Shown one piece after another: positions 48,396-49,329 of a stretch of DNA of 64,000 bases. Origin of the DNA: Kitasatospora sp. NBC_00240 (GTDB taxonomy: Bacteria; Actinomycetota; Actinomycetes; Streptomycetales; Streptomycetaceae); contig NZ_JAPEMU010000001.1 in NCBI RefSeq assembly GCF_026342405.1, forward strand, positions 6,014,001 to 6,078,000, given 5' to 3'. How positions within the stretch are numbered: the stretch's first letter is position 1; every line of letters starts with the position of its first letter. The notes beneath the pieces were generated by a model, which was given only the letters and a program-made list of their open reading frames with translations, was not told the origin of the DNA and did not search any database. A program made the translations under genes and the position numbers.

Positions 48396-48439
48396 GACGC
48401 CCTCCCGGGACCCGCTTCGGCGGGAGCCGGGAGGGCGTC
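48396..48439 (+). terminator. terminator of the xdh-like operon
   Basis: A 13-bp outer stem (GACGCCCTCCCGG with its complement) and an inner CCCGC-TTCG-GCGGG hairpin with a UUCG tetraloop, 18 bp after the stop codon. Confidence 0.88.
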
Positions 48440-48552
48440 CTCGTGGCGGCGGCCATTCGCCGGCCGGGGCCGTCCTCGCAGGCCCGGCCGCGTGCCGGGG
48501 GAGGGGAATCTCACCGGCGGATTCCCGGGGAATATCCGAAGAATGACATGAA

Positions 48553-48590
48553 GAATTGCCGGTCGGCAATTTTCTGCCGACCGGCAATTC
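48553..48590 (-). terminator. terminator of the tRNA-Cys transcript
   Basis: A perfect 16-bp stem (GAATTGCCGGTCGGCA with its complement) and a 6-nt loop. It lies 6 bp beyond the tRNA 3' end on the minus strand. Confidence 0.82.
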
Positions 48591-48596
48591 AAAGGG

Positions 48597-48668
48597 AGGC
48601 CATGACGGGAATCGAACCCGTGTAAACCGCTTTGCAGGCGGTTCCCTAAACCACTCGGGCACACGGCC
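48597..48668 (-). tRNA. tRNA-Cys (GCA)
   Basis: 72 nt. The acceptor stem GGCCGTG pairs with CATGGCC; the discriminator is U, as tRNA-Cys requires. The anticodon arm ACCGC-CTGCAAA-GCGGT has anticodon GCA; the T-arm is CGGGTTCGATTCCCG. CCA is not encoded. A short cysteine-rich ORF precedes it on the same strand. Confidence 0.96.
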
Positions 48669-48715
48669 GTGGGGTGACGAGGGCTCAGCCCTTCGTCGGG
48701 GGAGGGAAGCTGCGC

Positions 48716-48796
48716 TCAGGCGCAGGGACAGGCGCGACAACACCGGGGAGCGGCACAGGTGCGGGGCGCTGCGAGGGCCACCGGCTTCCTGTTCAT
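48716..48796 (-). CDS. 26-aa cysteine-rich small ORF upstream of tRNA-Cys (putative leader peptide)
   Basis: ATG at 48796 with AGGAG 6 nt upstream. The peptide begins MNRKPVALAAPRTC and ends CCRACPCA: five cysteines in the last 13 residues, four encoded by TGT, which is unusual where TGC would be expected. A consensus-like promoter lies about 30 bp upstream and the tRNA-Cys gene 47 bp downstream. A 9-bp hairpin (GACGA/GGGC stem with one bulged base, 48676-48697) stands between the ORF and the tRNA. The composition suggests a sensor of Cys-tRNA supply that modulates this transcript; this is inference. Alternatively it is a chance ORF, but signal quality argues against that. I know no named family. 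Confidence 0.6.
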   Translation of the reverse strand: MNRKPVALAAPRTCAAPRCCRACPCA

Positions 48797-48831
48797 GTCC
48801 AACTCCTGTCGTCGCGCTGTTCGGTGAATTC

Positions 48832-48862
48832 ATCTTATGCGGAACGGGGTGGGGTGCGTCAA
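48832..48862 (-). promoter_or_regulatory. promoter of the cysteine-rich ORF / tRNA-Cys unit
   Basis: TTGACG (48862-48857) and TAAGAT (48837-48832) on the minus strand with a 19-nt spacer; both hexamers are near consensus. The predicted start is near 48825, giving a leader of roughly 30 nt before the small ORF. Confidence 0.6.
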
Positions 48863-48924
48863 TATCCTTTTGTAAATTCCGTGTGGCGGCTCGTGCTACC
48901 GTCGAAGACAGGTGAGCGATCACC

Positions 48925-48963
48925 CCGGACGAGCGCGTCGTACCCGGAACGACAAGACGGCGC
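48925..48963 (+). promoter_or_regulatory. guanidine-III (ykkC-III) riboswitch
   Basis: The strand shows the conserved blocks in order: CCGGACGAG, CGTACCCGG, then ACAAGACGGCGC. CCGG (48925-48928) pairs with CCGG (48944-48947). These match the ykkC-III consensus seen in the Thermobifida fusca aptamer. It senses free guanidinium and switches on an exporter. Its location 50 bp before an SMR transporter with AAGGA at 48999-49003 suggests translational control. A TACCGT -10 candidate is at 48897-48902. Confidence 0.9.
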
Positions 48964-49014
48964 AGTACCGGCGGCCACCCCGGCCGTCGACCACTGCGAA
49001 GGATCGGTTCCGTC

Positions 49015-49329
49015 ATGGCCTGGCTCGTTCTGCTCGTCTCCGGCGTCCTGGAGACCGTCTGGGCGGTCGCCCTGGAGAACTCCAAGGGCTTCTCCCGGCT
49101 CGTCCCCACCCTCGTCTTCTCCGTCGCCCTGCTGCTGAGCATGGGCGGCCTGGCCTACGCGATGCGCACCATCCCGATCGGCACCGGCTACGCGGTCTGG
49201 GTGGGCATCGGCGCCGTCGGCACCGCGCTCTACGGCATGGCCGTCCTCGGTGACGCCGTCACGATGGCCCGGATCGGCTGCCTGCTGCTGATCGTCTCCG
49301 GCGTGGTCGGCCTCAAGGTGCTGCACTGA
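49015..49329 (+). CDS. gdx: SMR family guanidinium exporter (Gdx/SugE type)
   Basis: 104 aa, four membrane helices. MAWLVLLVSGVLETVWAVAL carries the essential Glu13. GTGYAVWVGIGAVGTALYGM in helix 3 is typical of the Gdx (formerly SugE) branch rather than polyaromatic-cation exporters. It is expected to work as an antiparallel homodimer exchanging guanidinium for protons. ATG at 49015 has AAGGA 11 nt upstream. A guanidine-III riboswitch in its leader strongly supports the substrate. No guanidine carboxylase or hydrolase gene is nearby. Confidence 0.94.
   Translation: MAWLVLLVSGVLETVWAVALENSKGFSRLVPTLVFSVALLLSMGGLAYAMRTIPIGTGYAVWVGIGAVGTALYGMAVLGDAVTMARIGCLLLIVSGVVGLKVLH

Follow-up and report, generated by a model that had tools for sequence, protein, structure and literature searches.

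A cysteine-rich leader ORF before a tRNA-Cys gene of Kitasatospora: a candidate attenuator sensing charged tRNA-Cys

A short open reading frame (ORF) rich in UGU codons precedes a tRNA-Cys gene of Kitasatospora sp. NBC_00240, and we think it rather likely that it acts as a leader-peptide attenuator, gauging charged tRNA-Cys and setting transcription of the tRNA-Cys gene behind it. The locus lies in a stretch of 64,000 nucleotides (contig NZ_JAPEMU010000001.1, positions 6,014,001 to 6,078,000), called the window here. Sensing of Cys-tRNA by the leader is strongly supported by sequence comparison, the read-out is probably transcription termination, with Rho as the favoured agent, and the sign is probably that of negative feedback. 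The comparison with relatives found a conserved ORF, Cys codons in frame, a choice of UGU among them, drift of the other codons, a C-rich spacer and a recurrent hairpin at the stop codon (P1). A first-pass annotation of this DNA had proposed a Cys-tRNA-sensing attenuator, and both the conservation of the ORF and the comparison of Cys retention came out in its favour.

The elements of the unit are listed in the table below. The first-pass annotation had described a promoter, an AGGAG, a 26-codon ORF with five Cys, a hairpin, tRNA-Cys(GCA) and a 16-bp repeat, and all of these were found, at the coordinates of the table; hairpin P1 is absent from its description. The five Cys codons fall within the final 13 codons of the ORF, and four of them are TGT. 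A short ORF with a Shine-Dalgarno (SD) sequence and a putative promoter in common with the tRNA gene can be read in the sequence, the layout that a leader attenuator would have. A promoter scan with a spacing of 16-18 bp did not detect the TTGACG/TAAGAT pair, which is spaced by 19 bp where 17-18 bp is usual, and a terminator scan that required a T run did not list the inverted repeat, which has no long T run 3' of it. For tRNA-Cys this is a second gene copy; the genome's other one stands in a Gly-Cys-Val cluster.

Table. Elements of the tRNA-Cys unit, in window coordinates.
Feature	Position	Strand	Remark
-35 element TTGACG	48857-48862	-	read from sequence
-10 element TAAGAT	48832-48837	-	19 bp from -35
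Shine-Dalgarno AGGAG	48803-48807	-	6 nt 5' of ATG
Leader ORF, 26 codons, Cys-rich, MNRKPVALAAPRTCAAPRCCRACPCA*	48716-48796	-	TGA stop at 48716-48718
Tandem TGT TGT, putative sensor codons	48737-48742	-	read from sequence
Hairpin P1, 6 bp, CTGCGC-CTGA-GCGCAG	48710-48725	-	loop contains stop codon
Spacer from stop codon to tRNA, C-rich and G-poor, rut-like candidate	48669-48715	-	base composition
Hairpin P2, GACGA(A)GGGC-TGA-GCCC-TCGTC, 5+4 bp, bulged A, without U tract	48676-48697	-	
tRNA-Cys(GCA)	48595-48668	-	ARAGORN; Rfam RF00005, 62.4 bits
Perfect 16-bp inverted repeat, presumed transcription terminator	48553-48590	-	read from sequence

Codons were counted in the 58 distinct ORFs from 59 leader loci. 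Read in frame, 306 of their 1477 sense codons encode Cys, as against 13 and 31 (of 1477 each) in the other two frames, or 44 of 2954 pooled. The first-pass annotation had held that the TGT excess in the window's ORF was unlikely by chance. TGT and TGC number 216 and 90 in the leaders (TGT in 216 of 306); a reference set of 29 ORFs of the window, selected by GC position, has 5 and 81 (5 of 86), an odds ratio of 39. Among their non-Cys codons that end in a pyrimidine, these leaders have 61 NNT to 784 NNC, and the TGT preference is specific to the Cys codons. The leaders are related by descent, so that p-values are overstated, while the effects are large. Most Cys codons sit near the end of the ORF (246 of 306 within the last 12 codons), an adjacent Cys pair occurs in 54 of the 59 peptides, and 58 of the 59 ORFs stop at TGA. 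The control codons therefore match the product of the target gene, in excess and conserved, as in known leader attenuators.

The rest of the peptide is much less constrained. The peptides have 12-39 residues and 1-9 Cys at no fixed spacing, and changes of leader length across relatives preserve the reading frame. Across 26 close pairs, which reuse genomes and are not independent, nonsynonymous single-base changes are, per site, 0.99 times as frequent as synonymous ones; with multi-change codons included there are 144 nonsynonymous and 34 synonymous changes, and most of the peptide can thus vary freely. In the same pairs aligned Cys were retained in 132 of 147 cases, compared with 414 of 543 for other residues (p 2e-4), and 5 further Cys were gained or lost through indels. 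This is the pattern that the first-pass annotation had predicted, with the ATG and Cys codons retained while other codons drift, and it fits a codon sensor, unlike a functional peptide. The N-terminal MNRKTVALAAPRTCA block of the main Kitasatospora clade is conserved beyond the needs of a pure codon sensor. The stretch from the SD region into the opening codons (GACAGGAG..ATGAACAGGAAG, with MNRKTVALAAPRTCA in many relatives; window 48752-48812) finds matches across Kitasatospora genomes in which the Cys-rich tail finds none (matched query part 49-109).

Upstream ORFs are not a general habit of the tRNA genes of this genome, an idea that was rejected on finding an SD-preceded ATG ORF of 10-50 codons in only 6 of 74 distinct tRNA upstream regions, a set that includes in-cluster tRNAs and the window tRNA-Cys itself. 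In the leader before tRNA-Cys the cognate codon is 36-fold over the average of the window genes, where Cys makes up 0.56% of codons. The runners-up come from one ORF, which precedes both tRNA-Ser (5.7-fold) and tRNA-Gln (2.9-fold), and the other three have zero.

The distribution of the leader was then read across relatives by genus code, with g1 taken as Kitasatospora and g25 as Peterkaempfera (Streptomycetaceae). A Cys-rich leader ORF precedes the second tRNA-Cys gene in 51 of 70 Kitasatospora genomes examined. It is intact in 6 of 13 genomes fetched of g16, missing from 6 and broken in frame in 1, whose assembly (G129) is 76% complete, and it is present in both Peterkaempfera genomes fetched. 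It was not found in 20 genomes of g23 (at a guess Streptomyces), 5 of g20, 2 of g21, 2 of g27, 1 of g22 or 1 of g29. The g29 locus is borderline and was left uncounted: an SD-preceded ATG with two Cys codons opens a frame that continues into an orphan tRNA-Cys. The count leaves aside G096 of g16, G071 of g25 and the larger part of the genomes drawn from g20 and g23. It speaks against the attenuator reading that 19 of 70 Kitasatospora and all 20 g23 genomes examined manage without the leader. In leaderless relatives the promoter block TTGAC...GAATTCA stands immediately 5' of tRNA-Cys. This is so in 17 of the 19 leaderless Kitasatospora, with TTGAC 38-39 nt 5' of the tRNA in 16 of the 19 and 45 nt in G224; the other two, G011 (57 nt) and G023 (77 nt), retain a stretch of about 30-50 nt without an ORF. 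Of 394 genomes across the class, a strict pattern search picked out 2, including that of the window.

The leader set was adjusted before the count. By hand, one leader without TTGAC 5' of it was added (L028) and the start of another was placed at an SD-preceded ATG (L077). Two long ORFs without Cys excess (L098, L099), two entries that are second tRNA copies after a leader already in the set (L090.1, L089.1) and the broken frame of G129 (L112) were dropped. Two or three tandem tRNA-Cys genes stand behind one Cys leader in Peterkaempfera griseoplana (L146), Sinosporangium siamense (L155) and G232 (L090).

A codon tree of MurA was built with FastTree for 80 genomes taken from a longer list, of which 56 have an intact leader, 1 a broken one (scored as leader) and 23 none. 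The cut to 80 removed, for example, G036, G139, G193, G197 and four genomes of g16, and MurA is partial in three tree genomes (G013, G129, G093). Parsimony on this tree needs 4 leader gains or losses, whereas 500 label shuffles needed 20.2 on average and never fewer than 14. On the most economical reading the leader was gained once, may be ancestral to Kitasatospora, Peterkaempfera and g16 and was later lost, with the root state ambiguous and several inner branches weakly supported (for example 0.25-0.72); the losses would then be one Kitasatospora clade (17 tree genomes), G224 and three g16 genomes. G224, which lacks the leader, is the sister of G186, where the leader has 12 codons, one Cys and a distance of 10 nt from the tRNA; the one-Cys leader is possibly in decay.

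Leaders of this kind occur in other families too. Nine loci with a similar tRNA-Cys were collected in Streptosporangiaceae, seven from 90 genomes (E <1e-20) together with L152 and L154. A similar leader (e.g. MDRKAAVTMIRTTCDLVTSSCCRA) is present in 7 of the 9, and none was found before the tRNA-Cys of the other two (L358 and L360). Six of the seven leaders have 16 TGT and 3 TGC, the seventh (L158) having been left out of the codon counts and of the P1 set. The Streptosporangiaceae leaders look homologous to those of Kitasatospora, and either vertical descent or transfer might account for this. In four loci (L152, L153, L158, L355) the order is Cys leader, DUF4180 gene, tRNA-Cys, with DUF4180 recognized by Pfam in three and by tblastn in L355. 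In L155 DUF4180 is reduced to a 36-residue piece, and in L154 (by eye) and L159 none was found between leader and tRNA; leader and tRNA are kept in all three, and DUF4180 was not found elsewhere in these three genomes. The DUF4180 gene could have been the first target of the leader.

In a further family, coded f3, a RLHVDLRRQASALC peptide, of another type, precedes 3 of 3 orphan tRNA-Cys genes in two genomes. These leaders resemble the model NF042934 (cis_reg_atten, 'putative leader peptide'), likewise a Cys-containing leader: against a cut-off of 27 bits, those of G045 (30.2) and G047 (L385, 32.3) pass and the second of G047 (L045, 21.1) lies below. The window peptide has no Pfam or NCBIfam match, NF042934 included. 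A search of the window's own genome found six NF042934 loci above the cut-off, and some of its loci of this type (L199-L207) precede sulfur-related ORFs; five ORF starts downstream of these leaders were tested, and 3 match Bac_luciferase, FMN_red or CDO_I. At seven of ten loci of this type that were examined, a simple rule yielded a peptide; their Cys codons are 8 TGT and 6 TGC, with TGC only in L205. One genome considered as a route to the right family (G406) was rejected, its best match (E 7.9e-12, 79% identity) being taken as a housekeeping tRNA-Cys. Altogether the first-pass check of whether the ORF is conserved in relatives gave a clear answer: it is, over three genera, with an extension to two further families, which excludes non-conservation.

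How the leader might act is suggested by the RNA between the Cys codons and the tRNA. Rho loads on C-rich, G-poor RNA. The mean composition of the spacer from stop codon to tRNA is 50% C and 22.5% G, and all 59 leaders have more C than G there. A C/G ratio of 1.8 or higher occurs in 48 of 59 spacers but in only 3 of 74 upstream regions (the 47 nt before this genome's tRNAs). Across these leaders of Kitasatospora and related genera the spacer is 10-85 nt long with no gene inside. By the first-pass annotation, its reading would fail if transcription began between the ORF and the tRNA; 15 of the 59 spacers have only 10-31 nt, so that no separate promoter fits within them, though one might overlap the ORF. 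In the shortest leaders, where 1-2 Cys codons precede a spacer of 10-12 nt, there is scant room past the ORF for a Rho site or P2. A P1-type stop-codon hairpin, varying in sequence, is above the shuffled mean in 55 of 65 leaders, six of them from Streptosporangiaceae (Wilcoxon p 4e-9), and is individually below p 0.05 in only 9 of 59. Taken alone, the leader of the window has an unremarkable fold (z -1.38; 19 of 200 shuffles equally stable).

From these features we infer that the ORF is translated, that ribosomes stall on it, that Rho acts and with which sign. Transcription would start immediately 3' of GAATTCA, near 48825, and a ribosome would trail RNA polymerase along the leader ORF, whose Cys codons, mostly UGU read by wobble, would register the supply of charged tRNA-Cys. 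When Cys-tRNA is ample, the ribosome would pass quickly and be released at UGA, exposing the C-rich, G-poor spacer, and Rho (or a hairpin) would end transcription before or within the tRNA. When it is scarce, the ribosome would stall on the 3'-terminal UGU codons, masking both P1 and the stretch used for loading, and the tRNA would be made. The tRNA gene would be gated by the decoding of its own codon, in a closed negative-feedback loop. With so many Cys codons in the last 12, a stalled ribosome would shield the 3' end of the ORF and P1, and their 3' position together with the C-rich spacer favours Rho blocked by a stalled ribosome, and hence negative feedback. Since the target is a tRNA, translation attenuation by freeing an SD sequence is impossible; termination (by Rho or a hairpin) or control of tRNA maturation remain.

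The same sensor may instead be read out by an RNA hairpin switch in place of Rho, which we consider possible, if somewhat unlikely. Here P2 would be an intrinsic terminator without a U tract, competing with P1 or with pairing of the UGUUGUCG codons to the 5' arm of P2. The final 75 nt of the leaders are indeed more stable than shuffles (mean z -1.07, n=59, 11 below -2), while the first 60 nt of the ORF are less so (mean z +0.38), and folds of L005, L006 and L061 pair the tandem Cys codons with the 5' arm of P2, as a candidate pairing only. P2 shows a change from A-U to C-G in L006 (read by eye), and in one subgroup of 12 it has a modest 2 double changes, equalled by 15 of 500 shuffles, with 91.7% of cells paired; when the P2 position is slid, 2 of 6 controls score higher covariation, yet only 23-49% of their cells pair, compared with 94%. 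However, P2 lacks a U tract, it is absent from the folds of five leaders (L008, L009, L011, L057, L078), and the shortest leaders have little space past the stop codon. The hairpin that the first-pass annotation placed before the tRNA is thus present in the window, clear in the window's relatives and in several other subgroups, but it is not universal, so a terminator/antiterminator picture is not established. An opposite sign, in which stalling would reduce tRNA-Cys through exposure to Rho or RNase or a block of maturation and tRNA-Cys would track cysteine supply, seems unlikely to us. The sequence does not fix the sign, and a ribosome at the stop codon of the shortest leaders would reach the 5' end of the tRNA; against this, a ribosome stalled on the clustered Cys codons shields much of the ORF, and leader attenuators responding to amino-acid supply normally de-repress on starvation.

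The remaining explanations do without a sensor that acts on the tRNA today. That the leader once regulated the DUF4180 protein gene and is a relic where the tRNA alone remains is improbable: the gene order in the four Streptosporangiaceae loci speaks for it, but loci with a truncated DUF4180, or with none found, have kept the leader, no gene lies in the spacers of the 59 leaders from Kitasatospora and related genera, and a frame-specific Cys excess would not survive in a relic. Slightly less credible still is a Cys-rich peptide that is itself the product, binding metal or thiols and co-transcribed with the tRNA that serves it. Its high Cys content and the conserved N-terminus in the main Kitasatospora clade would suit such a product, but the variable length, number and spacing of Cys, the strong choice of the rare codon TGT and the absence of a Pfam or NCBIfam match for the window peptide do not, and the idea was rejected on the free drift of the other residues. 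A chance ORF, or conservation of nucleotides without translation, is very improbable. In its favour, conservation of the SD region and the opening codons is seen in the DNA sequence as well, and one frame is broken, in the incomplete assembly of G129; yet the Cys excess is frame-specific, the TGT choice is confined to Cys codons, leaders cluster on the MurA tree and length changes keep the frame, and this explanation was rejected on the frame and codon statistics.

Several known systems resemble the attenuator proposed here. In TnaC-type leaders with Rho the ribosome stalls on free tryptophan through the nascent chain; there as here the ribosome at the end of the leader ORF would decide the access of Rho, with the difference that codon supply would be sensed here. 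The T-box riboswitch is likewise an RNA leader that reads tRNA charging, whereas sensing would be by translation in the present case, and a T-box was rejected because Rfam gave no match to one at E up to 5 in 48400-49100. Mycobacterial cysteine operons carry polycysteine leader ORFs for which Rho was suggested (Seliverstov 2005, PMC1262725), and in the excerpted text of that paper these share with the present leader a short ORF, a Cys run near the stop and no conserved terminator. They precede protein genes, and the target here is the tRNA that reads those codons. The trp, leuS and ilvB attenuators of actinobacteria also have control codons for a single amino acid in a leader ORF; their targets are protein genes, many have a terminator, and none stands before a tRNA gene in the excerpts of PMC1262725 and PMC8079986. 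The polycysteine leader of Canestrari 2020 is of the translation attenuation type according to the excerpt of PMC13236596. A target of that type would be translated from an occluded SD sequence, and the target here is a tRNA gene, on which such control cannot act. Among the best matches listed in a search of titles and abstracts of the open-licence literature, a leader ORF controlling a tRNA gene was not described.

The match of tRNA amount to demand in bacteria is largely attributed to gene copy number and growth-rate control. If the attenuator reading is true, the locus would be a direct, testable case of homeostasis of an individual tRNA through a codon-specific sensor, and leader-peptide attenuation would then cover a stable RNA besides protein genes, a target on which translation attenuation is impossible. 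The UGU bias would be a usable signature for finding further Cys sensors. We are evenly divided on a broader statement, that this is a self-gauging tRNA gene whose transcription is set by the reading speed of its own least-used codon, UGU, in a closed loop built at least twice in actinobacteria from leader peptides without detectable similarity.

Divergent from the tRNA-Cys unit, on the plus strand, the window holds a Guanidine-III riboswitch (48906-48966; 51.4 bits, gathering 36). Behind it, at 49015-49329 (+), is a gene for a 104-residue protein which, at 118.3 bits and slightly below the cut-off of 126, is closest to the SugE-type SMR transporters.
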